From contig CAKRLN010000070.1 in assembly GCA_934359535.1 (NCBI GenBank), positions 1-10,584 of the forward strand: a stretch of DNA of 10,584 nucleotides, read 5' to 3'. The position numbers and the translations under genes are program-made. This stretch comes from an uncultured Lachnospiraceae bacterium (GTDB lineage Bacteria > Bacillota > Clostridia > Lachnospirales > Lachnospiraceae). The notes under the pieces are model-generated. The model searched no databases. It worked only from the letters and a program-made list of their open reading frames with translations, and was not told the DNA's origin. Position 1 is the first letter of the stretch, and each line of letters begins with the position of its first letter. Positions 1-10,584 of this stretch are shown in pieces.

Positions 1-570
1 GGCCAGAACATGAACAAGGGAAGCTATGACGGTGAGGTGTCAATCTATGCCCATGATGAGGTAATCTCCATCCTGCGCATGATGTCCGATACGCTTTTGC
101 AATCAAAGGTAACCAAGTTAATTGATGACCGGATTCATCTTGTCACGGTAACGGATGGTGAAACACAGACGCTTCTTGGCAGAAATGTCACATTCTTTGA
201 TATCCATTCTACCAAGGCAAAGCAGTTCGGCTTCTCTATGGAGCTTTCCTGCGGAAAGAAGCTTACCTGCTGCGGGGATGAGCCTTACAATGATTTTGAG
301 AAGGACTATGTCAGGGACAGTACCTGGCTTTTGCATGAAGCCTTCTGCCTTTATTCGGAAGCAGATCTCTTCTCCCCTTATGAGAAGCATCATTCCACTG
401 TAAAGGATGCCTGTGAGCTTGCAGAACGCTTACACATTGAAAACCTTGTGCTCTACCACACGGAAGATACCCATATTTCTGACCGCAAAGCACTGTATTT
501 GGCAGAAGGAGCACCTTATTTCCATGGAAATCTGTACATTCCAAATGATCTGGATGCGCTCCTTCTTTAA
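1..570 (+). CDS. MBL-fold metallohydrolase, RNase Z-like (C-terminal part)
   Basis: The frame is open through base 1, with sense codons before the Met at 10, so this is the C-terminal part of a longer gene whose start lies outside the window; the stop is TAA at 568-570. Counting from the Met at 10, several elements match the second half of RNase Z-type metallo-beta-lactamase proteins: GDEP at 89-92 (position of the metal-bridging Asp), LLHEAFC at 107-113, KHHST followed by D133 (the HST..DA motif) and LYH at 148-150 with a candidate metal-ligand His. The diagnostic HxHxDH motif would lie upstream and cannot be seen. Family members process tRNA 3' ends or are general hydrolases; I cannot tell which applies here, and the divergent tail (GNLYIPNDLD) argues against calling it housekeeping RNase Z. 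It is the only plus-strand gene and converges on the GtrA/GH3 operon, sharing a bidirectional terminator. Confidence 0.85.
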   Translation, partial: GQNMNKGSYDGEVSIYAHDEVISILRMMSDTLLQSKVTKLIDDRIHLVTVTDGETQTLLGRNVTFFDIHSTKAKQFGFSMELSCGKKLTCCGDEPYNDFEKDYVRDSTWLLHEAFCLYSEADLFSPYEKHHSTVKDACELAERLHIENLVLYHTEDTHISDRKALYLAEGAPYFHGNLYIPNDLDALLL

Positions 571-645
571 GCATTCATCCTAGTGAATGAATGTTCTATT
601 CCAGATCACTCCATCCCGTTTAATACCGGCATTTCAGAAATTTTC

Positions 646-690
646 AAAAAACAGGATTTACCAGACTTACTCTGATAAATCCTGTTTTTT
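646..690. terminator. bidirectional rho-independent terminator
   Basis: A 15-bp perfect stem (646-660 with 676-690) has sequence AAAAAACAGGATTTA and its complement. It continues inside with CAGA/TCTG (662-665 with 671-674) around a 5-nt loop, with one C-A mismatch between. T-runs follow the GC-containing core on both strands. It lies between the plus-strand metallohydrolase stop (570) and the minus-strand GtrA stop (698), so it can end both transcripts. Confidence 0.85.
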
Positions 691-697
691 GTAATTT

Positions 698-1258
698 TTA
701 TTTTGCTTCCCCTTCTGGGAAAATGATTTTATTCACGAAGAAGAATACGACCATGGACACACCTCCGTTTAATACCGTTGTTCCGATATTATAAAGCCAG
801 CCCGGTACGAACATTCCTGCAACGGCTACCCAGATACAATTGATCGAATTTACGATACAGGTAACGATGCAGAATGCAATCAGATACCAGAATGCCTGAT
901 ACCAGATCTTTCCTTTGCTGCGGAATACAAAATTTCTCTGGATCGGGAAATTGATACACTCTCCAATCACCATTGCAATCATGTAAGCGCAGAAGTATGG
1001 CAGTCCGCCGTGCGCCGCATCATATCCAATGATGTTCCATTTGAAGGTCTCTCCAAACAGTGTGATATCAATTCCCGGGAACCCGAAGTCAATCTTCGGA
1101 AGTCCGGCAAATGCCAGTGGCAGAAATAACAGCATGACGTATTTGAATACCGTAATCAGATTGCTTACGATTACAAACAGACCGCCCTCCCGGACCCATT
1201 TTGAGGCTCCGGGATGCTTATCTGCGAAGTTCTGCCATAGATTTTTTATACCATTCAT
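698..1258 (-). CDS. GtrA-like polytopic membrane protein
   Basis: This is a 186-residue hydrophobic protein with about four membrane segments (roughly residues 26-51, 84-105, 118-148, 156-176). The motif INFPIQRNFVFRSKGK at 102-117 corresponds to the NFxxxRxxxF signature of the GtrA family, and a charged VNKIIFPEGE tail follows the last helix. GtrA-type proteins are usually 120-150 residues and are linked to moving or modifying lipid-linked sugars for cell-surface polysaccharides; this one is longer because of a loop at about 52-83. Start: ATG at 1258 with AGAGG 8 nt upstream. It begins only 26 bp after the stop of the membrane-anchored GH3 gene, so the two are very likely co-transcribed. A role in surface glycan handling with that enzyme is inferred from this pairing. 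Family call fairly sure; substrate unknown. Confidence 0.8.
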   Translation of the reverse strand: MNGIKNLWQNFADKHPGASKWVREGGLFVIVSNLITVFKYVMLLFLPLAFAGLPKIDFGFPGIDITLFGETFKWNIIGYDAAHGGLPYFCAYMIAMVIGECINFPIQRNFVFRSKGKIWYQAFWYLIAFCIVTCIVNSINCIWVAVAGMFVPGWLYNIGTTVLNGGVSMVVFFFVNKIIFPEGEAK

Positions 1259-1284
1259 ATGTAGTACCTCTATGTGTATATGTG

Positions 1285-4155
1285 CTATTCTGCGGCTCTT
1301 TCTTTTCTGTACTTTCTGATTGCAAGTACTTCTAAGAAGATTACAAGTGCTCCAAGGATCACATCAATGACAATTGCCATGATCTGCCAGTTCATAAGAC
1401 CTGTCTTTAAGTTGTCCGGATCATATGCACGGCTGTTTACAACGGTGTACATAATGTTCTTACTTGCCTGACGCATTGCTTTTACGCCTGTTGCACTCTT
1501 TGTATCTGTTACATGGTTTGTCTCTGTATCGTATGCAACTAACATACAATCTGTACCACCGCGGATACCCATATCAGAATCCATGTAGCCGTATACACCA
1601 AAGTAATCGGTTAATACAAATCCACGGAATCCCCACTCATCACGAAGAACGGTTGTCTGTAATGGATAGCTTCCGCCTGCCCATTTTGTTCCGATGTAGT
1701 TGAAGGAAGACATTACGGCCTTTGCTCCGCCATCTTTGACTGCAATTTCAAATGGTTTTAAGTAAATCTCACGGATTGCCTGCTCATTTGACCATGTACA
1801 GAGCATTCCTGTACGGTTTGTTTCCTGGTCGTTTAATGCAAAATGCTTGATATACGCATAAACGCCATATTTTTCAGCTCCGATCACGGCATTGGCTGCC
1901 ATGCTTCCGGAAAGAACGCCATCCTCAGAATAATACTCGAAGTTACGTCCTGCAAATGCGCTTCTGTGTGTATTCATTGCAGGTGCATACCATCCGGATA
2001 CCTGCATCTCATCTGCCATTTTTCCGATGCTCTCACCAAAGGCAAGTGCAACGTCTTTGTTCCATGTATTTGCGATCATCACTGCAGATGGGAATCCGAT
2101 GGAACCGGTTCCGGTAAAGTTGTTGTTGATGGATGCCGGTCCATCACAATCAATGGTCATAACCTTTCCAACGCTAGATGCAGCTGCGGTCTGATATCCG
2201 CCAAGTGCGATCATCGTATCCATATCAGAAATAGTTAATTCGTCTAACAGATCATCCCATTTTGCATCATCATAGTCAAGTCCACGCATGTCTGCAAGTG
2301 TCAAACCGTTCTGGGCTCCAGTTGTCGGCATTTCATCGGAATCATCGTTATAATCCTCTGGATCATAGTTACTGTTATTTACAAATTCAGCCTTGTCTTC
2401 ATCTGATAATGTAAAGTTTGTCGGTGCAGCAGTTGCCTTGGCATAGTTTGCAAAATGATCTGCTCTGGAAAGGTAAGTCGCATCTCCTTCTGCATATGCA
2501 AACTGATTGGTTGCTGCCGCATCATCGGTAGAACGTGCATTGTTTTCATCATAAACAACGGTTTCCGGCACGTTTACGTTCTTTGTGTCTACCACGTTAT
2601 GGGAATCCGTGTTAATGGAAATTCCATAATCCCCAGCCTCTAATACATAGCATCCATTTCCATAAGTATCATAGGATGCCATATCCTCTTCGGAAAAGCT
2701 GATTGTAATTGTCTCAGACTCGCCTGGCTCTAATACACCGGTTTTTGCAAAATCAATCAGGTTTGCCGTTGCTTTTTCGATTCCTCCATTTGTGTATGGT
2801 GGATTGTAGTAAGCTTCTACCACATCTTTTCCAGCAGAATCACCGGTATTCGTTACCGTTACATCAAAAGATACTTCACCGTCTGCCACGGTAATGTCTC
2901 CCATTTCCTGTGTAAATTCCGTATAAGAAAGTCCGTAACCAAATGGGAACTGAACCGTCTCATCATAGTTAATCATGCCTTCTGCTGCTGCGGTCTCGTA
3001 GAAACGATATCCAACATAAATGCCTTCTACATAATTTACGAAAGCAGGAATGGTTGGCTCTTCTTCTCCGGTACCGAAGTTTTTAGAAGTTGCTGCAAAC
3101 TCATCCATGTTATCATAGGTAAAGTTTCCAAAATTGTTGTAGGTAGGTGTTGCTGTTAAATCATATACGAAAGTATCACTTGTCTTACCAGATGGATTTA
3201 CTTCACCTGAAACAACTTTTCCTAACGACTCAAATCCGGACTGACCCGTACCTGGACACCAGATTGCACCCTTGATCTGCTCATAGTCATCTAAGAAGCC
3301 AAGCTCCATCGCATTTGCGCCATTGTATACAACAACGACATTGTCAAAATTATCACAAACAAGATCTAACATATTCTTTTCGGTCTGGCTTAACTGTAAG
3401 TAATGCTCGCCATCCTCGAAATCCTTGTAATCCTTTGAATTATCCGTATAGGTTACCTGGCTTACATCAGTTGGAAGGTCTGCCCCCTCACCACCAACAC
3501 GGGTGATCACAACCATTGCAGTATCGGAAAATTCTTTTGCATTCTCGATCAGCTCATCCGAGTAAGAATCTGCGGTTGGCTCCGGTAATGTCCAGTCCTG
3601 TGCCCACATTCCAACTTCTGGTCTGTCTTCCCGGTATTCTTTGTAAAAATCGGTAAGCTCGGAATTTAATTTGTAGCCTGCATCTTCCAGCCCGCCAAGC
3701 AGTGTTGTTGTCTCATAAGCATCGGATAATGCTCCTGATCCAGTTCCACCGTAGCATGGGTTTGTGGATGCCCATCCAAATACATTCAGGTTTTTCGTAT
3801 CTGCAAGCGGAAGAATATTGTCTTCATTTTTTAATAACACAATACCCTCATCTGCAATGTCCTCGCAAAGCTCTGTTGCTTCCTTTGAGGTATCCTCTGT
3901 AATTGTTCCATTTCCCATTGCAAGCGAAATCATGCTTGACATTGGAATAAAGCAGATCATATTGATAATGATAACTGCTGCTAAAAGGAATGCGATCCAT
4001 GCTTCCTTCCGAACCAGCTTTTTCACTGGTTTTTTGAGCTTCATGCATGCCACAGTGACAACGATTGCGAGCACAAGTGCTACCCCGAGCGCAATCAGAT
4101 ATGGCTTGCAGGAATTCAGGACGTTAATTACGTCATCCATGTTAATTGCTAACAT
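1285..4155 (-). CDS. membrane-anchored GH3 glycosidase with reversed domain order
   Basis: This is a large glycoside hydrolase family 3 protein of 956 residues from the preferred start; numbers below use the in-frame ATG at 4164 (959 aa), so subtract 3. Two membrane helices (about 22-41 and 55-75) flank a Lys/Arg-rich loop, and a third helix (about 924-946) ends in RKYRKERAAE; the positive-inside rule puts the catalytic body outside the cell. Domain order is inverted. The GH3 C-terminal-type domain comes first (EGIVLLKNEDNILPL at 106-120; GGEGAD at 224-229 with candidate acid/base E226; FPFGYGLSY at 406-414), then a fibronectin-III-like part (about 430-520). An acidic linker (about 535-660) follows, then the TIM-barrel domain: DCDGPAS 672-678, GRNFEYYSED 739-748, KH 773-774, and LTDYFG 851-856 with candidate nucleophile D853. 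Reordered GH3 enzymes are known from Ruminococcus albus and Butyrivibrio; beta-glucosidase-like activity is likely but substrate unproven. Start choice: GGGAGG directly abuts the ATG at 4164 but lies 9 nt before the ATG at 4155. GtrA-like gene follows after 26 bp. Confidence 0.93.
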   Translation of the reverse strand: MLAINMDDVINVLNSCKPYLIALGVALVLAIVVTVACMKLKKPVKKLVRKEAWIAFLLAAVIIINMICFIPMSSMISLAMGNGTITEDTSKEATELCEDIADEGIVLLKNEDNILPLADTKNLNVFGWASTNPCYGGTGSGALSDAYETTTLLGGLEDAGYKLNSELTDFYKEYREDRPEVGMWAQDWTLPEPTADSYSDELIENAKEFSDTAMVVITRVGGEGADLPTDVSQVTYTDNSKDYKDFEDGEHYLQLSQTEKNMLDLVCDNFDNVVVVYNGANAMELGFLDDYEQIKGAIWCPGTGQSGFESLGKVVSGEVNPSGKTSDTFVYDLTATPTYNNFGNFTYDNMDEFAATSKNFGTGEEEPTIPAFVNYVEGIYVGYRFYETAAAEGMINYDETVQFPFGYGLSYTEFTQEMGDITVADGEVSFDVTVTNTGDSAGKDVVEAYYNPPYTNGGIEKATANLIDFAKTGVLEPGESETITISFSEEDMASYDTYGNGCYVLEAGDYGISINTDSHNVVDTKNVNVPETVVYDENNARSTDDAAATNQFAYAEGDATYLSRADHFANYAKATAAPTNFTLSDEDKAEFVNNSNYDPEDYNDDSDEMPTTGAQNGLTLADMRGLDYDDAKWDDLLDELTISDMDTMIALGGYQTAAASSVGKVMTIDCDGPASINNNFTGTGSIGFPSAVMIANTWNKDVALAFGESIGKMADEMQVSGWYAPAMNTHRSAFAGRNFEYYSEDGVLSGSMAANAVIGAEKYGVYAYIKHFALNDQETNRTGMLCTWSNEQAIREIYLKPFEIAVKDGGAKAVMSSFNYIGTKWAGGSYPLQTTVLRDEWGFRGFVLTDYFGVYGYMDSDMGIRGGTDCMLVAYDTETNHVTDTKSATGVKAMRQASKNIMYTVVNSRAYDPDNLKTGLMNWQIMAIVIDVILGALVIFLEVLAIRKYRKERAAE

Positions 4156-4164
4156 CTTTTCCAT

Positions 4165-4170
4165 CCTCCC
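4165..4170 (-). promoter_or_regulatory. ribosome binding site deciding the GH3 start
   Basis: GGGAGG on the minus strand touches the ATG at 4164 with no gap, too close for initiation there, but is 9 nt from the ATG at 4155. This favours 4155 as the true start. Confidence 0.65.
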
Positions 4171-4182
4171 AAAGATTTATTT

Positions 4183-4195
4183 GTCCGCTTCGGAC
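4183..4195 (-). other. small hairpin in the GH3 5' leader
   Basis: GTCCG (4183-4187) and CGGAC (4191-4195) form a perfect 5-bp GC-rich stem with a 3-nt loop in the untranslated leader, 12 nt upstream of the ribosome binding site. It may affect transcript stability or translation; no function is shown. Confidence 0.35.
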
Positions 4196-4206
4196 CTTGT
4201 AACTCT

Positions 4207-4235
4207 ATCCTAGCATAAAGTTTTTCTTTCAGCAA
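4207..4235 (-). promoter_or_regulatory. likely promoter of the membrane GH3-GtrA operon
   Basis: On the minus strand, TTGCTG (4230-4235) and TAGGAT (4207-4212) are separated by exactly 17 bp. TG stands one base before the -10 element (TGCTAGGAT, extended -10). The -35 matches consensus at 3 of 6 and the -10 at 4 of 6, so it is weak and suits an activator-dependent promoter. The LytTR-like motif at 4244-4272 lies just upstream. Confidence 0.5.
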
Positions 4236-4243
4236 AAAACTGC

Positions 4244-4272
4244 ACAAAATGCATTTTTTCCGCATAAACTGT
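4244..4272 (-). promoter_or_regulatory. candidate LytTR-type binding site upstream of membrane GH3
   Basis: ACAGTTTAT (4264-4272, minus strand) fits all nine positions of the general LytTR half-site pattern [TA][AC][CA]GTTN[AG][TG]. A weaker copy, GCATTTTGT (4244-4252, 7 of 9), lies 11 bp downstream in direct orientation and ends 8 nt before the -35 element, the arrangement typical of AgrA-type activators. The same ACAGTTTATG with A6 three nt later occurs upstream of the other GH3 gene (10102-10111). Binding is inferred. Confidence 0.45.
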
Positions 4273-4297
4273 ATTTCACCATGTACAACATAAACAA

Positions 4298-4343
4298 AAA
4301 AGCATTACAATTCTATACATATTGTACAAATCATAATGCTTTT
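4298..4343 (-). terminator. likely terminator of the LytTR-kinase-AAA operon
   Basis: AAAAGCATTA (4298-4307) pairs perfectly with TAATGCTTTT (4334-4343), with an inner CAAT/ATTG pairing (4308-4311 with 4321-4324) and an internal bulge. On the minus strand the stem ends in TTTTTTGTTTATG, and it begins 3 nt after the AAA-ATPase-like stop codon. The large loop and AT-rich stem make it a moderate terminator. Confidence 0.55.
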
Positions 4344-4346
4344 CTG

Positions 4347-5267
4347 TTATTTTATCCCGTCTTCCAGATCCGAACCAATCTGTACCTTTTTTCCTTCAAA
4401 TGCAAATCCATAATACCAGGTCTTTATGAGTGCTTTCTGCTCAGAAAGACCAAAAGTATCCAGCGCATCAAAGACCTCCTGCTCGGTAAATCCAAAGCAG
4501 TCCGCATAACGGTCTGATGTTGTTGTAATGACCGTCAGATTATTCAAATCCGAAAAGATGGATTCCTTTGACACACGTGTGATACCGGTCATCATGGCTC
4601 GCTCCAGATATGGGTTCGTCTTAAATGTCAGATTAAACATACTGCGGATAAACGCGGAAAATTCCTTCCAATATCCATTCACATAGGCTTCCTGCATCGG
4701 TGTATCATACTCATCCAAAAGAAGAAGCACTTTTTTTCCATAAAAACGATACAGACAACCAGAAAGTGTCCGAAGCGCCCCACATACAATGTCATTGGAA
4801 ATCTTCTTCTCGCAAGAGCCATTTTTCGTGTAATGGTCAAGCTGCGCAAAAACTGCTTTTTCCCCATCGGTCAGACGGTCACTTTCCACCAGCTCTTCCT
4901 GCATCCGGTAAGCTTCATTGACCGCATCGATCACCTGATTTCTCGCATCCGTGAAATTATCTGCCTTTACCGATGCAAAGCTCAGAAAAATAACCGGATA
5001 ACTTCCCTGAAGCAGTCTATAGCTTTCCTCTTTCCAGACCGCAAGCCCTTCAAACAAATCAGCCCTGTTTTTATACTGATTTGAAAAAAAGCAGTTTAAC
5101 ATACTCATATTGAGCGTTTTCCCGAAACGGCGTGGGCGTGTGATGAGCGTAATTACATCTTTAGACTCCCACCATTTCCAGATAAACGTCGTTTTATCAA
5201 TATAAAAGCTATTTTCCTCGCGTATGCTGTCAAATCCCTGATTTCCTATACTAATTACCGGTGTCAT
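4347..5267 (-). CDS. AAA-ATPase-like protein, C-terminally truncated
   Basis: The 306 residues match the N-terminal ATPase part of the AAA-ATPase-like family (PF09820 type): GNQGFDSIREENSFYIDKT at 8-26, a Walker A-like RPRRFGKT at 44-51 (K50, T51), Walker B LLLLDEYDTP at 181-190 (D185, E186), TGITRVSKESIFSDLNN at 227-243 and the WYYGFAF box at 284-290. Full-length members are usually about 500-600 residues and continue from this last box into a PD-(D/E)XK nuclease-like domain. Here similarity ends near residue 292 and the frame stops 14 codons later, so the nuclease-like half is missing. The following bases in the other frames show no recognisable continuation. The ATG at 5267 lies inside the kinase gene (17-nt overlap) with GGAGG 6 nt upstream, so translation is probably coupled to the kinase. 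The family's function is poorly defined and its genes are multicopy and mobile-looking. This copy may be a decaying remnant or a retained ATPase-only form. Confidence 0.8.
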   Translation of the reverse strand: MTPVISIGNQGFDSIREENSFYIDKTTFIWKWWESKDVITLITRPRRFGKTLNMSMLNCFFSNQYKNRADLFEGLAVWKEESYRLLQGSYPVIFLSFASVKADNFTDARNQVIDAVNEAYRMQEELVESDRLTDGEKAVFAQLDHYTKNGSCEKKISNDIVCGALRTLSGCLYRFYGKKVLLLLDEYDTPMQEAYVNGYWKEFSAFIRSMFNLTFKTNPYLERAMMTGITRVSKESIFSDLNNLTVITTTSDRYADCFGFTEQEVFDALDTFGLSEQKALIKTWYYGFAFEGKKVQIGSDLEDGIK

Positions 5268-6582
5268 ATGCTTCCTCCCTGATCGGAATTAAAATCTTAA
5301 GGTCAAACCAATTCTCCTTCGTGTCAATCGTAACCGCGCCCTCATATTTATTAACGGTATAACGGATACTCTTTAAGCCATAGCCATGATACTCCTTTTC
5401 CTTCTTTGTTGTAACAAGCGCCCCCTCCTTATAAAGAAGGGCATCCTCATAATAATTTTCAAACCGCAGGATCAGAAAATTTTTCTGCTTCGACACAGTT
5501 ACGTGGATCAGCCGCTTCTCCTTATCCGGAATCTTTAATTCACATTCGATCGCATTGTCAAGCGCGTTTCCGAAAATGCTGCATATGTCCATGACGTCCA
5601 TGAATTCTAAAAGCGTTCCATCCGCCACACAGGTAAAGGTGATTCCATGCTTCGCACAGTAAAGGCTCTTTGTCGTAAGCACCGTATCAAGCACCTTATT
5701 TCCGGTCTTATTCTGTGCCTCATACTGACGGATTTCCTCCTCCATGCAGTTTAAAAATTCCTCCCGCTTTTCCTTATCCTCCTCGCTTCTTAAAAAGGCA
5801 ATCTGATGCTTCAAATCATGATATTTGTAGTTGATTAACTCAATACTCTCTCTTGACTGCTTGTACTGTACATACTGATTCTGAAGAACGTTTTGCACCG
5901 CCTCAAGCTCTTTTCTCACACGCAGCTCACAGCACTGGGTCAGGTGCGCATAAAGAATCGCGATCCCGCCGAGATTGACAAGTGTCCGGATATTGGCAAT
6001 CTCAAAGGAATATCTTCCGGAAAACGGTGTATTGACCGTAATATAGCTTAAATTGCTGACAGAAAAAACGGCAATTGCAATTAAAAGCCCGGAAAAATAC
6101 TCTTTCCGGGTGATGTTCATCCTGCCATCCTTTGGTAGATGCAGATGCACAACCTTAAGCAGTAACACCGCGATAATTCCATAGCTGCCGGTCAGAACAA
6201 GCGTCTGGATTGCCCAGTCCGATACCACTCCACTCCAGAAAAAGCAGACAATCTGCCACTCGATCGATGCCATAAACTCGGCAGCAACAAAAGCAATCAT
6301 GCCAAAATATGCGGCATCCATGATCCCGACATCACAGCAGCCGAAAATAAAGCCGATCATAAGCAGCACTGCAAAAATCATACACGGAATCCAGAATATA
6401 ATCTTAAGATCCCCCGTCAAAATTAAAAAGACACTTTGCACCAGGAGCATGGCTGCCATAAGAAGTCCGGTTTCCCATTTCTGAAACCGTTTTTTCAGCG
6501 GCAGAATAAAAACCATGCATGCCACCCACTCTGCAAGTGCCGTATAAAATCGCGGAATATCCGGCATCATATAATCGATCAT
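5251..6582 (-). CDS. GHKL-type sensor histidine kinase (AgrC-like)
   Basis: The 443-residue protein has an N-terminal half with about six or seven hydrophobic helices (roughly 13-30, 38-56, 60-82, 90-115, 123-147, 161-184, 197-215), then a helical stretch (about 216-250), then a kinase core. YKYHDLKHQI at 252-261 holds the candidate phospho-acceptor H255, NALDNAIE at 339-346 is the N box of GHKL ATPases, and GYGLKSI at 400-406 is the G box; the F/D boxes are reduced, as usual for the AgrC/ComD class. These kinases sense peptides or other extracellular signals with the membrane domain and phosphorylate a LytTR regulator. Start: the ATG at 6582 overlaps the regulator stop as ATGA, with GGGGAGAGG 7 nt upstream; an in-frame TTG 18 nt further out is less likely. 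No peptide precursor or AgrB-like protease gene is present in this window, so the ligand is unknown. Confidence 0.92.
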   Translation of the reverse strand: MIDYMMPDIPRFYTALAEWVACMVFILPLKKRFQKWETGLLMAAMLLVQSVFLILTGDLKIIFWIPCMIFAVLLMIGFIFGCCDVGIMDAAYFGMIAFVAAEFMASIEWQIVCFFWSGVVSDWAIQTLVLTGSYGIIAVLLLKVVHLHLPKDGRMNITRKEYFSGLLIAIAVFSVSNLSYITVNTPFSGRYSFEIANIRTLVNLGGIAILYAHLTQCCELRVRKELEAVQNVLQNQYVQYKQSRESIELINYKYHDLKHQIAFLRSEEDKEKREEFLNCMEEEIRQYEAQNKTGNKVLDTVLTTKSLYCAKHGITFTCVADGTLLEFMDVMDICSIFGNALDNAIECELKIPDKEKRLIHVTVSKQKNFLILRFENYYEDALLYKEGALVTTKKEKEYHGYGLKSIRYTVNKYEGAVTIDTKENWFDLKILIPIREEAYDTGN

Positions 6583-7289
6583 TTGACTACCTCTCCCCAA
6601 TACCGAGTCAGTGCTTCCATAAATTCCTTCTTTCTTGCACGGCTAAGTACAAGCGGCTCTCCTTTTACGTTCGCACAACCATCCTGAATACCGTCCACAT
6701 GCTGTAAATTAATGAGATACCCTTTGTTGCCGCGGCAAAAATTCATCCCGGCAAGCTTCTCCTCCATCTCCTTCATCGTCCCGGCCGTCTCATAATCCCC
6801 GAGTATCGTATGCAGGATCAGTGTATGTCCCTGGCTTTCGATATAATAGATATTCGCGATATTGATCCGGACAGTTCCACCCTTGATGTTTACCATGATC
6901 ATTTTGCTCTCACGCTTTTTCATGCGTCCAAGCGCTCGGTTTAAGCGCTGTGAAAATGCAAAATACGATACCGGCTTTAACACATAGTCGAGTGCATCCA
7001 CCGCATAGCCCCGGATCGCATACTGAGCCATGTTCGTAATAAAGATAATCACAACCTCCGTGTCCACCTTCCGGATCTCCTCTGCGGCAGACATCCCATC
7101 CATAAATTTCATTTCCACATCCATAAAAATCAGGTCATACTGCGACTGATATTTATTAACAATCTGGTCTCCATCTGAATAAACCGTAATATCAAACGCT
7201 TCCCCGTTTTCTATTTCATACTGGTGCAGGAATTCCTGCAGCTGTTTTGCATACATTGCCTCGTCTTCCACAATTGCAACCTTAATCAT
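6579..7289 (-). CDS. LytTR-family response regulator (AgrA-like)
   Basis: The 236-residue protein has a receiver domain at about 1-120 with acidic residues E8/D9, phospho-acceptor D57 (LIFMDVEM), T85 (FITN) and K105 (DYVLKPV). A LytTR DNA-binding domain spans about 131-232, with NIYYIESQGHTLILHT at 145-160 and the typical NKGYLINLQHVDGI at 189-202. The length is normal for the AgrA/VirR class. Such regulators bind pairs of 9-bp half-sites, usually as activators. The gene is first in its operon, with a strong predicted promoter upstream and AGAGG before the ATG at 7289; its stop overlaps the kinase start by 4 nt, the usual sign of a cognate pair. LytTR-like half-sites lie upstream of both neighbouring GH3 genes, making them candidate targets. 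Confidence 0.95.
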   Translation of the reverse strand: MIKVAIVEDEAMYAKQLQEFLHQYEIENGEAFDITVYSDGDQIVNKYQSQYDLIFMDVEMKFMDGMSAAEEIRKVDTEVVIIFITNMAQYAIRGYAVDALDYVLKPVSYFAFSQRLNRALGRMKKRESKMIMVNIKGGTVRINIANIYYIESQGHTLILHTILGDYETAGTMKEMEEKLAGMNFCRGNKGYLINLQHVDGIQDGCANVKGEPLVLSRARKKEFMEALTRYWGEVVK

Positions 7290-7356
7290 ATGCCGCTTTC
7301 CTCTTTCCTTCTGCCACGCAGCAATTCCACTGTATCAGACAGATTTTCCTTTTTTT

Positions 7357-7385
7357 ATCATAAACGAATCCTACGCTTTTCTCAA
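7357..7385 (-). promoter_or_regulatory. sigma-A promoter of the regulator-kinase operon
   Basis: On the minus strand, TTGAGA (7380-7385) and TATGAT (7357-7362) are exactly 17 bp apart, each matching consensus at 5 of 6. The ATG of the response regulator follows about 70 nt downstream. A partial LytTR half-site (TTCGTTTAT, 8 of 9, at 7360-7368) overlaps the -10, so autoregulation is possible but unproven. Confidence 0.7.
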
Positions 7386-7464
7386 GTCCCTTTTCCGAAG
7401 AGCGTGCCTTTTTACACGAGCATAACGGCTGCTTCTATGCTTGACAGGTGAACAATAACACAAA

Positions 7465-7503
7465 ATCCCCTATGGCAAAAAAGTTCTTTTCACCACAGGG
7501 GAT
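7465..7503 (-). terminator. rho-independent terminator of the canonical GH3 gene
   Basis: ATCCCCT (7465-7471) pairs with AGGGGAT (7497-7503). After one mismatch the stem continues as TGG/CCA and then, in minus-strand sense, GAAAAG/CTTTT around a small loop. On the minus strand TTTTGTGTTATT follows. It lies 54 nt past the GH3 stop and 80 nt before the regulator promoter, separating the two units. Confidence 0.75.
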
Positions 7504-7556
7504 ACTTCTATCCTACACTTTAAATTCTCTTTTTTTATCCGTTTTGGACTACATAG

Positions 7557-9953
7557 TTAGTCGCGTTTTACTGCGGCACGAATCAGATGCGCGGTTCCTT
7601 TGATCCGGTGTCCGTTTGCCATCTCGGTCAGTGCCTCTGCCATCTCCATTGTGACAAAGCCGCCTGTCATCTTCGCATAGCCGCGGATCGGCATGTTATA
7701 GTTAAACAGCACATTTAAGTTCGGCTTGCCCTGCCATTCACTGATTTTAAGCAGGATACGTAAAACACCGTAAAACAGCTTTCCGAAAATTCCTTTTCCA
7801 TAGTAAAGCTGACACACTGCATCGTTCATCCGGATTTCTCCGCTCCAGCTTCCATCCGGAATCTCTCTTCCATACAGCTTGCGGAATGTTTCATCGCTCA
7901 CGTTCTGGATCTGTCCGGCAAAATATTCTGGCATCTCATCCTTGCGATATGCGCCTTCTTTTACGGTTCCTTCTACATAAACTGTACCCTCTAACTGCAT
8001 TTCTTCCGCATTTTTTCCAATGAAAATGCGGTATTCGCCGGATTCAATCTCCCAGCTGTCTGTTCTTGTATCATAAAAACGGAAGGTTTTATCATCGAAT
8101 GGGATATGAACTTCTTTTTCCTCACCCGGAGCAAGCGTCACACGGGAAAAGCCCTTTAACTCGCGAAGCGGACGAAAGACTGTATCCGATTCTTTTCCGA
8201 CATAAAGCTGTGCAATCTCGGTTCCTTCTACGCTTCCGGTATTTTTCAGGATAAAGGAAACCCCCTCTTTATCAACTGATAAATTTTCATAGGAAAAGCT
8301 TGTATAGCTTAGTCCAAATCCAAATGGAAAACGCACTTTTTTTCCAACAGTTGTGTAATAACGGTATCCGACATAAAGAGATTCGCGGTATTCGCTGCTC
8401 CGTTCCTTGCTCGGGTAATAGTTATAGGCTGGTGTGTCCTTATAGCTCATCGGATAGGTTTCGTTTAGTTTTCCGGATGGGCATACCTTACCCGTCAGCA
8501 CATGCATCATCGCAGAAGCCCCTGCCTGTCCACCTAAATATCCATGTACGATTCCCTTAACATGGGAATACCATGGTATCTCAATCGAAGATCCTGCCGA
8601 TAAAATAACTACAACGTTCGAATTCACCGTTGTGATCTCATCAATCAGCTGGTTCTGCGCAAGTGGCATGTGCATATGGGTACGATCCAGGCCTTCCGAT
8701 TCACTGATTTCATCCAATCCTGCAAAAACAAGCACAACATCTGCCTTTTTTGCTGCTTCAACCGCTGCATGCACAAGCTTTTTGTCTGCCTTGCGGTTTC
8801 TTACATACCCCTGCTCATAGGCAGCCATGGAAAGCCCGCTTTCCCCGATCACATCTAAAATAGCTTCTGGTTTCTTTGCCGGGTTCACAAGGGATGAGCC
8901 TGCGCCCTGATACCTTGGTGTTTTCGCGAAATCTCCGATCACGGCAACCTTTGTGCCTTTCTTCAAAGGAAGAATCTGATCTTCATTTTTCAAAAGAACA
9001 ATGCTTTCCTCCGCCGCTTTTCTGGCAAGCGCGTGATGCCCTTCCACATCAAAGGTTTTGCCTTTTCCATCTACGGTTGCCTGATGCGTTGCAAAAATAA
9101 CATTGAAAAGCTCATCAAGACGCTGATCGAGGATTTCTTCCTCCAGGGTTCCATTTTTCACGGCTTTTACAATGTCATGCATTCCGGATTTTCCAGTTCC
9201 CGGCATCTCCAGATGGCTTCCATTTTTCACTCCAAGTGCGTGGTCATTGCTTCCGCCCCAGTCAGAAACCACATAGCCTTCAAAGCCCCATTCATCCACA
9301 AGGATTTCCTGCAGCATATGTTTATTCTCATTTGCATAAATCCCATTGACTTCATTATAAGAAGACATGATAGACTTCGCTTTTCCCTCTTTTACCGCAA
9401 TTTCAAAACCGGTTGTATAGATCTCACGGAAGGTCCTCTCATCGACAACAGAATCACTTGCCATTCTTCGGAGCTCCTGGCTGTTTGCCGCAAAATGCTT
9501 TGGACAGGCTGCGATTCCTTTGCTCTGGATTCCCTTGACATATGCAGCCGCCATTTTTCCTGCATGATATGGGTCCTCGGAAAAATACTCAAAGTTACGG
9601 CCACAAAGCGGACTTCTTTTGATATTTAATCCCGGTCCTAAAATAACATTTACATCCATCGTAACCGCTTCTTCTGCAAGAGCTGTACCGATTTCCTCTC
9701 CAAGTGCCTCATCCCAGCTATTCGCTACCGTTGCCGCTGTCGGAAAACACGTTGCCGGAAGACTCGCATTTAATCCAAGATGGTCTCCTGCCCCCGCCTG
9801 TCTTCTAAGTCCGTGCGGTCCATCGGACATTGCCATGGATGGAATCCCATACTTCTCAAAATCCATCGTTTCCCATGTGTTTTTTCCAGACATCATCAGT
9901 GCCTTTTCTTCTAATGTCATCTGACGAATGATTTTTTCGTATTTTAAGCTCAT
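7557..9953 (-). CDS. GH3 beta-glucosidase, canonical domain order, cytoplasmic
   Basis: The 798-residue family 3 glycosidase hydrolyses terminal beta-glycosides with retention. The TIM-barrel domain (about 1-290) shows SDGPHG 43-48, GRNFEYFSED 118-127, KHFAANSQE 152-160 and VVSDWGG 228-234 with nucleophile D231. The alpha/beta sandwich (about 305-505) has EESIVLLKNEDQILPL at 315-330 and SESEGLDR at 417-424 with likely acid/base E420. FPFGFGLSYTSF (542-553) leads into a fibronectin-III-like domain (about 560-660). A further 120 residues follow, with a hydrophobic patch (about 723-736) and IRGYAKMTGGF (756-766); this tail recurs in clostridial GH3 enzymes, and its function is unknown to me. There is no PA14 insert, signal peptide or membrane anchor, so it probably acts in the cytoplasm on imported oligosaccharides, complementing the outward-facing GH3. 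The ATG at 9953 follows a modest ribosome binding site (AAAGGA, 11 nt). Beta-glucosidase is most likely; xylosidase or mixed activity cannot be excluded. Confidence 0.96.
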   Translation of the reverse strand: MSLKYEKIIRQMTLEEKALMMSGKNTWETMDFEKYGIPSMAMSDGPHGLRRQAGAGDHLGLNASLPATCFPTAATVANSWDEALGEEIGTALAEEAVTMDVNVILGPGLNIKRSPLCGRNFEYFSEDPYHAGKMAAAYVKGIQSKGIAACPKHFAANSQELRRMASDSVVDERTFREIYTTGFEIAVKEGKAKSIMSSYNEVNGIYANENKHMLQEILVDEWGFEGYVVSDWGGSNDHALGVKNGSHLEMPGTGKSGMHDIVKAVKNGTLEEEILDQRLDELFNVIFATHQATVDGKGKTFDVEGHHALARKAAEESIVLLKNEDQILPLKKGTKVAVIGDFAKTPRYQGAGSSLVNPAKKPEAILDVIGESGLSMAAYEQGYVRNRKADKKLVHAAVEAAKKADVVLVFAGLDEISESEGLDRTHMHMPLAQNQLIDEITTVNSNVVVILSAGSSIEIPWYSHVKGIVHGYLGGQAGASAMMHVLTGKVCPSGKLNETYPMSYKDTPAYNYYPSKERSSEYRESLYVGYRYYTTVGKKVRFPFGFGLSYTSFSYENLSVDKEGVSFILKNTGSVEGTEIAQLYVGKESDTVFRPLRELKGFSRVTLAPGEEKEVHIPFDDKTFRFYDTRTDSWEIESGEYRIFIGKNAEEMQLEGTVYVEGTVKEGAYRKDEMPEYFAGQIQNVSDETFRKLYGREIPDGSWSGEIRMNDAVCQLYYGKGIFGKLFYGVLRILLKISEWQGKPNLNVLFNYNMPIRGYAKMTGGFVTMEMAEALTEMANGHRIKGTAHLIRAAVKRD

Positions 9954-10081
9954 TTCCCAATCGATCCTTTCTCAATGTAATGTTATCTCTGTTTCCATCT
10001 AACGTGCTGACATTAAATAATTTCAGTTCCATTTTCTATATTCAGAGTAACATAACTGGAAAATGAAAATTGGATTCTTTC

Positions 10082-10111
10082 GTAAATGGTCGTTTTTTTG
10101 ACATAAACTGT
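10082..10111 (-). promoter_or_regulatory. candidate LytTR-type binding site upstream of canonical GH3
   Basis: ACAGTTTAT (10103-10111, minus strand) fits all nine positions of the LytTR half-site pattern. A second imperfect copy, ACCATTTAC (10082-10090, 7 of 9), lies 12 bp downstream in the same direction, the spacing known for AgrA-type sites. The 10-mer plus the A-run 2-3 nt later matches the site upstream of the membrane GH3. No clear -35/-10 pair follows; the best guess for a -10 is TATAGA at 10035-10040. About 130 nt separate the site from the ATG. Confidence 0.42.
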
Positions 10112-10220
10112 TATCGATCTGTATGGTTTTTCACTGCATCATCTGTCAGGCTGAGCAGTGTACTCTTTATGCCGTTATCCAGTGCCGTACGCCACCGATC
10201 TTGTCTGCTAAATCTGTCAT
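10111..10220 (-). pseudogene. possible frameshifted micro-gene (about 36 codons)
   Basis: An ATG at 10220 has AGGAG 9 nt upstream. It opens a 17-codon frame (MTDLADKIGGVRHWITA) that stops at 10167-10169. If one base is restored near GTACGG (about 10188), the reading continues in another frame as TALDNGIKSTLLSLTDDAV and stops at TAA 10111-10113, giving about 36 residues of hydrophilic, helical-looking, protein-like composition. I do not recognise the family. It sits between the rRNA-operon terminator and the GH3 regulatory site, a place where insertions and decay are common. It could equally be chance or a short leader peptide. Confidence 0.25.
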
Positions 10221-10267
10221 ACCTTTTCTCTCCTGTAGTGTTCTTCTTTAACTGTCTATTTATAAAC

Positions 10268-10294
10268 AAAAAAAGCCCTGCTCTTTCGAACAGG
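10268..10294 (-). terminator. rRNA operon terminator
   Basis: On the minus strand CCTGTTC-GAAA-GAGCAGG forms a 7-bp stem (one G-T pair; 10277-10283 with 10288-10294) closed by a GNRA tetraloop. GC and seven T follow (10268-10274). It lies about 210 nt beyond the 23S 3' end and ends the rRNA transcript before the GH3 region. Confidence 0.88.
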
Positions 10295-10501
10295 ACCAGT
10301 GTTGTACCTTCAAAATTTCATACAGATTCCGATTATCGTTCTTATTGCTCTAAAAGTGGTCACTTCGATTCCGCTTCGCTTCATCTCAGTTCCTTGCTTT
10401 CGAAAGTTATTCTCTATGGAAGTTCGAGTTCGCTTCGCTTACTCGAACGACCAAACGACTAAATTCATACTTCGTCTTCGACTCGTATTCATTAAGTCTT
10501 A
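10295..10501 (-). other. repeat-rich rRNA trailer without a 5S gene
   Basis: This non-coding stretch runs from the end of 23S to the terminator. It holds an 8-bp stem GTTCGAGT (10422-10429) with ACTCGAAC (10441-10448), the 10-bp palindrome CTTTCGAAAG (10397-10406), and a direct repeat CGCTTCGCTT at 10372-10381 and 10431-10440. No 5S rRNA sequence or tRNA is recognisable. Such repeats near 23S ends often serve pre-rRNA processing stems. Confidence 0.6.
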
Positions 10502-10584
10502 TTGGTCAAGCCCTCGACCGATTAGTAACAGTCAGCTCCATGTGTTGCCACACTTCCACCTCTGCCCTATCTACCTTGTAGTCT
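10502..10584 (-). rRNA. 23S ribosomal RNA, 3' end (partial)
   Basis: Read on the minus strand, the sequence matches the conserved 3' end of bacterial 23S rRNA: AGACTACAAGGTAGATAGG, then GAGGTGGAAGTGTGGCAACA, then GTTACTAATCGGTCGAGG and CTTGACCAA. The final GGGCTTGACCAA is the strand that pairs with the 23S 5' end. The exact mature 3' end is placed near 10502 by analogy and may be off by a few bases. The rest of the gene lies beyond the right edge. The rRNA operon therefore transcribes leftward, in the same direction as the carbohydrate genes. Confidence 0.93.

Follow-up and report, generated by a model that had tools for sequence, protein, structure and literature searches.

What does a LytTR two-component system control when it lies between two glycoside hydrolase family 3 (GH3) genes that share an upstream motif? 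LytTR systems are familiar mainly from virulence, bacteriocins and quorum sensing, and the question is raised by a stretch of 10,584 nucleotides (nt) from an uncultured Lachnospiraceae bacterium (GenBank assembly GCA_934359535.1, contig CAKRLN010000070.1, positions 1 to 10,584; hereafter the window), whose minus strand encodes a LytTR regulator and its sensor kinase between a cytoplasmic and a membrane GH3 enzyme. A reading made from the letters alone (hereafter the sequence-only reading) had noticed one string upstream of both enzyme genes and proposed a self-contained regulon, run by an AgrAC-type system, that couples an extracellular signal to beta-glycosidase synthesis outside and inside the cell. 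As judged from comparison with relatives, the repeated motif is a real, conserved regulatory element: a direct repeat that is conserved, keeps a fixed spacing to an extended -10 element, stands at the heads of GH3 and GtrA units and co-occurs with the regulator. With a probability of about 0.85, the two motifs are predicted to be tandem binding sites of the LytTR regulator encoded between them, which would activate both GH3 units.

Tandem Sites Upstream of Both GH3 Units

The minus-strand string ACAGTTTATGNNNAAAAAA, noticed at 4254-4272 and 10093-10111, is present at both places with zero mismatches. When up to two mismatches are allowed, one further match appears, at 7967-7985 within the cytoplasmic GH3 gene; at this tolerance 0.01 matches are expected by chance, and none of 200 shuffles contained three. 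The second half-sites in direct orientation are also borne out, GCATTTTGTG beginning 20 and ACCATTTACG 21 bases from the start of the first half-site, with spacing as in relatives. The site of the membrane GH3 unit reads ACAGTTTATG-N10-GCATTTTGTG (4243-4272, minus strand; start-to-start 20), and that of the cytoplasmic GH3 unit reads ACAGTTTATG-N11-ACCATTTACG (10081-10111, minus strand; start-to-start 21). Published LytTR sites consist, in the accessible text of PMC4847170, of two repeats of 9-11 nt with a spacer of 11-13 nt, the repeat length and spacing being common to them and the consensus not; in the window, 11 or 12 nt separate 9-nt repeats.

A matrix trained on relatives without the window ranks the site at 4272 first (29.95 bits) and that at 10111 second (19.33 bits) among all matches in the window, and 100 first-order Markov random windows gave 0 equal-or-better matches at 29.95 bits, 1 at 19.33 bits and 14 at 15.8 bits. 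Since cytoplasmic GH3 promoters were absent from the training of the matrix, the 10111 site is an independent confirmation. Were the shared string a chance match or the trace of a recent duplication, its shortness and the weak second half-site at 10111 would be in keeping with it; however, the chance expectation given above and flanks that differ by eye speak against such an origin, and the orthologous sites found at the same places in relatives contradict it, leaving it a negligible probability.

A weak third match (7338-7368, minus strand; 15.8 bits) lies upstream of the regulator gene. Autoregulation through this match was rejected, as none of 49 orthologous regulator upstream regions, a few of them shorter than 300 bases at contig ends, reaches 12 bits, and the absence of an extended -10 element at the usual distance is a further ground for rejection. 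The 7368 match is probably not a functional site, and this comparison of upstream regions shows no conserved targeting of the regulator gene.

Conservation in Relatives

A collection of species genomes scanned with the membrane GH3 yielded 107 relatives, the closest named one being Roseburia inulinivorans (membrane GH3 82% identity), and the best 80 of the 107 loci were analysed. In 78 of the 80, the sequence extended 150 bases or more beyond the start of the membrane GH3 gene on its upstream side, and 66 regions remained after removal of near duplicates. De novo motif discovery in these regions by expectation-maximisation, with the window excluded and a width of 31, returned a direct repeat, ACAGTTTATG followed by a second copy 20-22 bases on, with a posterior above 0.5 in 50/66 regions and the consensus.CaGtTTaTGC..aAAAa..gacagtTt.tg. 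The alignment of orthologous upstream regions, suggested with the sequence-only reading as a check, has therefore come out in its favour, as the motif found there reproduces the window element. When the discovery was rerun on the 58 regions outside Bifidobacterium, the motif reached 450 log-likelihood units (80 restarts), compared with 111-134 in six randomised sets run with 25 restarts.

After training without Bifidobacterium, the same candidate site was still the top position in 8/8 Bifidobacterium loci. These scores were rare among shuffles in only three of the eight (0, 1 and 2 of 300), the others being equalled in 19 to 120 of 300, and conservation of the site in Bifidobacterium is suggestive. 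In four Butyrivibrio loci (L029, L030, L064 and L066) the region upstream of the membrane GH3 gene shows, by eye, a half-site within an inverted repeat that has a T-run behind it; this structure resembles, again by eye, the terminator of the upstream gene. A comparison of the membrane GH3 upstream region with a plasmid collection gave no match, the query being too short to inform on horizontal spread.

Promoter Geometry

An extended -10 element of the form TGnTAnnnT follows 28/44 non-redundant sites, starting 27-30 bases after the second repeat, whereas 1000 composition shuffles (starts 24 to 31) gave 0.62 such cases on average and never more than 5. Among 17 sites outside the training set, the element lies at +27 to +29 in 15 and at +24 in one, and one has none. 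In the window, the membrane GH3 unit carries TGCTAGGAT (4207-4215, minus strand), starting 28 bases after the second repeat as in relatives, and the cytoplasmic GH3 unit carries TGTTACTCT (10044-10052, minus strand), starting 29 bases after it. A sigma-70 scan found no sigma-70-like -35/-10 pair on the minus strand at either proposed promoter. From the fixed spacing to the extended -10 element, the first repeat would span about -73 to -64 and the second about -52 to -43; such a place, just upstream of the -35 region, is a normal one for an activator.

The Site Follows the Enzyme Genes

In the commonest gene order (35/80 loci), the regulator and kinase genes precede the membrane and then the cytoplasmic GH3 gene, the site stands before the membrane GH3 gene, and GtrA in many cases lies before or after the cytoplasmic GH3 gene. 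Whether the cytoplasmic GH3 gene carries a site of its own varies with its place: at 16 bits or more, a site was found in 17/24 cases where this gene heads a unit versus 3/51 where it lies inside an operon, that is, with a membrane GH3 or GtrA gene within 300 bases upstream (Fisher p = 9e-9, a value that is overstated because the loci are related and near duplicates were kept). The 75 cases were drawn from the 80 loci together with 30 loci found in a search of 60 genomes around R. inulinivorans, after those with less than 50% identity, an incomplete start or less than 200 bases upstream had been dropped. The conservation check thus extends to upstream regions that were unused in training, where the site is present mostly at unit heads. 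Further, 13 cytoplasmic GH3 paralogues from the same search (40-48% identity) have no site, their top score being 8.0.

The three inner genes with a site have upstream gaps of 140, 282 and 298 bases. Seven heads have no site (L020, L041, L070, L050, L056, L098 and L100); among them, the gene in L020 and L041 follows a divergent GtrA gene that carries the site, that in L070 lies 353 bases after the membrane GH3 gene, that in L050 scores 13.5 bits, and L056 belongs to a genome without a regulator match.

R. inulinivorans is a natural experiment in this respect. Its cytoplasmic GH3 gene lies on another contig and its GtrA gene is parted from the membrane GH3 gene by an AAA_14/DUF4143 gene, so that the three genes no longer form one operon, and each has its own site. 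A locus from the R. inulinivorans genus group (L161) has the gene order of the window minus its AAA gene, and its two sites score 30.8 and 26.9 bits; its cytoplasmic GH3 is 87% identical to that of the window, and the stretch ends inside the membrane GH3 gene.

Specificity of the Site

Upstream regions of other open reading frames (ORFs) in the 80 loci almost never carry the site: 2/618 reach 16 bits, and both of these ORFs encode GtrA proteins. The genomes of 31 relatives (11 + 20), scanned with a pattern of fixed spacing and up to two mismatches, gave 13 matches, of which 10 lie at promoters, 2 within genes and 1 is unassigned. The 10 promoter matches belong to membrane GH3, cytoplasmic GH3, GtrA, a third, permuted GH3 and a chemoreceptor. 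A reversed-pattern control gave 8 matches in the same genomes, so that single matches need caution; the pattern finds nothing in 22/31 genomes, although many of them have matrix sites. Strong matches are few across these genomes, and the abundance of the motif, on which the sequence-only reading had also been staked, is therefore as it expected. A scan of the whole R. inulinivorans genome with up to three mismatches gave 8 matches versus 1 for the control. Two of the 8 lie at GtrA and the cytoplasmic GH3 gene, one (L083) lies within a gene, and five with three mismatches (L084-L088) have no module genes near them in an ORF and tblastn listing; the membrane GH3 site was missed by the pattern because its spacing is 20.

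A core-promoter feature of strong promoters, made of an A-tract and an extended -10 element and bound by no regulator, would account for the A-rich spacer and the fixed extended -10 element. Such a feature would not be expected to recur as two half-sites in direct repeat about two DNA turns apart, nor to be nearly absent from the 618 other ORF upstream regions and from the 13 GH3 paralogues, and it is a very improbable explanation of the element.

A gene for a HAMP/MCP chemoreceptor stands behind the same site in Konateibacter (L159, 4371-6116) and in a clostridial metagenome assembly (L160, 2761-4533), and the Konateibacter site adjoins a regulator-kinase pair and a second cytoplasmic GH3 gene, hinting that chemotaxis may be part of the regulon. 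A site at 5702 of locus L162 precedes the third, permuted GH3 gene (2419-5586), whose product has a lipoprotein-like N-terminus. At 1054 of the Konateibacter locus, a 17.6-bit site lies between a divergent pair of ORFs, one of which looks TetR-like by eye. In three loci (L006, L007 and L015), matches of 12-17 bits also stand ahead of the kinase gene; they fall inside the regulator gene, at the 3' end of its coding sequence, and were regarded as coincidental.

Co-occurrence With the Regulator

The site is present in 45/49 loci with the regulator versus 4/14 without it, a count over 63 loci from which 17 of the 80 had been dropped as truncated and without regulator; the four regulator-bearing misses score 12-15 bits at the membrane GH3 gene. 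Additionally, 23 genomes, chosen mainly for a missing regulator or site, were searched for the regulator. Six of them (L002, L052, L056, L059, L074 and L079) have no regulator homologue above 35% identity and no 16-bit site at module genes, and 9 of the remaining 17, all with a regulator relative of at least 41% identity, have a 16-bit site. Several of the searched genomes are metagenome assemblies, so that absence may reflect incomplete assembly.

Several observations weigh against control of both units by the neighbouring regulator. The 10111 site has a weak second half-site and scores 10 bits below the 4272 site, the 16-bit threshold and the 31-column width were picked after the site had been seen, the Fisher p is overstated as noted above, and the cytoplasmic GH3 heads of L098 and L100 are without a site and without an explanation. 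Among the 17 genomes with a regulator relative, 8 have no 16-bit site at the GH3 locus (L040, L042, L048, L060, L063, L065, L069 and L073), L042 having just 121 bases upstream and L073 scoring 14.0. Likewise, four loci without a nearby regulator have sites, and their genomes encode one elsewhere. These genomes contain many LytTR paralogues, with up to 11 LytTR-regulator matches per genome, so that another regulator could bind.

This last possibility amounts to a distinct explanation, in which the sites are LytTR boxes bound by a paralogous LytTR regulator, while the neighbouring pair either has other targets or uses these sites as well. The number of paralogues is consistent with it, as are the four site-bearing loci that lack a regulator of at least 40% identity in their stretch. 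It is nevertheless unlikely, as the site tracks the neighbouring regulator in the counts given above (45/49 versus 4/14) and two of the five families that dominate the locus are the regulator and the kinase. Judged from these sequence patterns, activation of both GH3 units by the neighbouring LytTR regulator is the most likely reading. In Konateibacter (L159, 8015-11328), two near-equal LytTR regulators (61% to that of the window) lie in neighbouring GH3 loci; this family of regulators seems to have grown alongside the GH3 genes.

Genes of the Window

The order on the minus strand is the end of the 23S ribosomal RNA (rRNA) gene, cytoplasmic GH3, regulator, kinase, an AAA-ATPase_like gene, membrane GH3 and GtrA. 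Pfam bears out the genes that had been named between and beside the sites, namely a LytTR regulator, a GHKL kinase and two flanking GH3 genes. Both enzymes (cytoplasmic GH3, 7557-9953; membrane GH3, 1285-4164; Pfam and hydropathy) combine PF00933 and PF01915 with the nucleophile motif and retain the usual GH3 motifs, those seen in the pair being TDY, SDW and KHF. The membrane GH3 is circularly permuted, its domain order being GH3_C, Fn3-like, GH3_N (Pfam and GH3 motifs), and has two hydrophobic segments at its N-terminal end and one at its C-terminal end. The hydropathy scan found no hydrophobic segment in the cytoplasmic GH3. A C-terminal extension of about 130 residues in the latter (window 7557-7960) is without a Pfam match, and the 60 listed PDB matches end by residue 666.

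The regulator (6579-7289) consists of Response_reg and LytTR domains (PF00072 and PF04397), and the kinase (5251-6567) has a GHKL domain (HATPase_c_5, PF14501, E 5.5e-31), a hydrophobic N-terminal half, and H, N and G boxes. A receiver with a LytTR domain beside a membrane GHKL kinase makes the pair a LytTR/GHKL two-component system. The kinase start is uncertain, a TTG at 6600 being possible. The GtrA/DPMS family membrane protein gene (698-1258; Pfam) follows the membrane GH3 gene after a gap of 26 bases and is probably co-transcribed with it.

Between the kinase and membrane GH3 genes sits the AAA-ATPase_like gene (4347-5267; PF09820, 306 residues), which overlaps the kinase stop. Its family is absent from those recurring in at least 6 of the 80 loci, and the gene is therefore regarded as lying outside the conserved module. 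The AAA_14/DUF4143 gene between membrane GH3 and GtrA in R. inulinivorans is a different ATPase gene, which suggests repeated insertion of such genes. An inverted repeat visible by eye (4343-4298) lies between the AAA gene and the membrane GH3 gene; a scan with a loop limit of 8 gave no intrinsic terminator between the kinase and AAA genes and the membrane GH3 gene. Directly upstream of the cytoplasmic GH3 gene is the 3' end of the 23S rRNA gene (10502-10584, minus strand; Rfam), and Rfam reported no 5S gene in the window. In locus L161, genes other than 23S rRNA lie upstream of the cytoplasmic GH3 gene.

Module Composition and the Comparison With agr

ORFs of at least 90 residues from the 80 loci were clustered into families. 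Five families dominate, in 37 to 58 loci each, namely membrane GH3, cytoplasmic GH3, kinase, GtrA and regulator, and all five genes occur together in 32/80 loci at the chosen thresholds. The other clusters found in at least 6 loci are antisense ORFs, by the author's reading, and one ABC-type ATPase. The window has no transporter gene, and the families recurring in at least 6/80 loci include no widely shared transporter, the ABC ATPase being confined to 10 loci.

The LytTR regulators AgrA, VirR and FsrA bind direct repeats and have virulence targets, and the label AgrAC-type, given to the window pair by the sequence-only reading, holds only in part. The domain architecture supports it, as a membrane GHKL kinase is paired with a LytTR regulator in the agr system too. 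Unlike agr, window-type loci have no AgrB-like family among those recurring in at least 6/80 loci (AgrD was not searched for, ORFs of at least 90 residues having been called), and the regulator scores 33.9 bits against the NCBI AgrA equivalog model, far below its cut-off of 400. Among 10 genomes with regulator, kinase and GH3, AgrB was found above the Pfam cut-off in 5, below it in one and not at all in 4, and no AgrB match lies close to the module in R. inulinivorans (C137, C10) or in a second genome (G053; C1, 0.92-0.93 Mb). Because AgrB is missing above the cut-off in 5/10 genomes, an AgrD-type peptide is unlikely as a general signal, and peptide quorum sensing was rejected in that role.

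Relation to Previously Described Systems

The nearest precedent is the 2010 account of Butyrivibrio proteoclasticus B316, in which three LytTR regulators each lie near a secreted GH3 with a C-terminal transmembrane helix, and whose authors proposed a common function and carbohydrate sensing for these neighbourhoods (PMC2914790). The link between LytTR regulators and membrane GH3 enzymes is shared with the window; in contrast, the accessible text of that account describes neither a binding site nor an occurrence in other genomes, and the term GtrA is absent from it. Similarly, the accessible parts of a 2017 report on Cellulosilyticum ruminicola place a LytTR gene beside glycoside hydrolase genes and describe transcription shifts on cellulose or xylan; those genes encode endoglucanase and cellobiohydrolase, not GH3, and no binding site is described there (PMC5733062).

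In terms of promoter structure, the window sites resemble the direct-repeat promoters of HdrR/BrsR (PMC6193735) and YpdB (PMC4847170), and the direct repeats of hdrRM lie upstream of a promoter with a putative extended -10 element (PMC6193735). As far as the accessible texts go, the targets there are bacteriocins, autoregulation and the pyruvate response, which differ from those proposed here; the window-type regulator also differs from LytTR direct-repeat systems in that its own gene has no conserved site. The Gram-positive polysaccharide utilization loci of Roseburia likewise combine glycoside hydrolases with regulators, and one of them, Ros-7, was listed in 2016 with a LytTR regulator, a kinase and a chemotaxis transducer (PMC5320581, in its accessible part). 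However, these loci require a transport system by definition (PMC5320581), whereas here the sole transporter-like family is an ABC ATPase in 10/80 loci, and the window, with enzymes and a regulator and no transporter, falls outside that class. No description of the site, of the two-enzyme regulon or of its distribution was found in the accessible text of the open-licence PMC literature.

Mechanism and Implications

From the position of the sites a simple mechanism can be proposed. The AgrC-like membrane kinase would sense a signal, leading to phosphorylation of the regulator, which would bind both half-sites of the direct repeat (one at roughly -73 to -64, the other at roughly -52 to -43) and recruit RNA polymerase to an extended -10 promoter that lacks a good -35 element. 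Two units would be switched on together, one with membrane GH3 and GtrA and the other with cytoplasmic GH3. We infer, along with binding by the neighbouring regulator and activation, that a single glycan may be the substrate of both enzymes, of one outside the cell and of the other inside. The likeliest signal would be a beta-glycoside or its breakdown product.

The idea of a self-contained GH3 regulon is supported by the conservation and abundance of the site, and needs widening, since GtrA also carries the site, as does a chemoreceptor or a third GH3 in some relatives. A bolder proposal, which is doubtful, is of a five-gene unit for glycan sensing that lacks a classical transporter and occurs in several Firmicutes families and Bifidobacterium. 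The kinase would sense a glycoside or a lipid-linked glycan, not a peptide; the membrane GH3 would trim the glycan outside, GtrA would carry the product across the membrane and the cytoplasmic GH3 would finish its breakdown, while the chemoreceptor would add movement to the source in some species.

In gut and rumen bacteria, a conserved site with an exact promoter geometry here connects a LytTR system with two beta-glycosidases, one of the membrane and one of the cytoplasm. This raises the question of what an AgrC-like kinase senses where AgrB is absent. The site makes the 2010 Butyrivibrio suggestion of a LytTR-GH3 connection directly testable and provides a sequence handle for the regulon in relatives, where it already points to GtrA, a chemoreceptor and one more GH3 enzyme. 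Collectively, this evidence points to a widespread, little-studied glycan-sensing control circuit.

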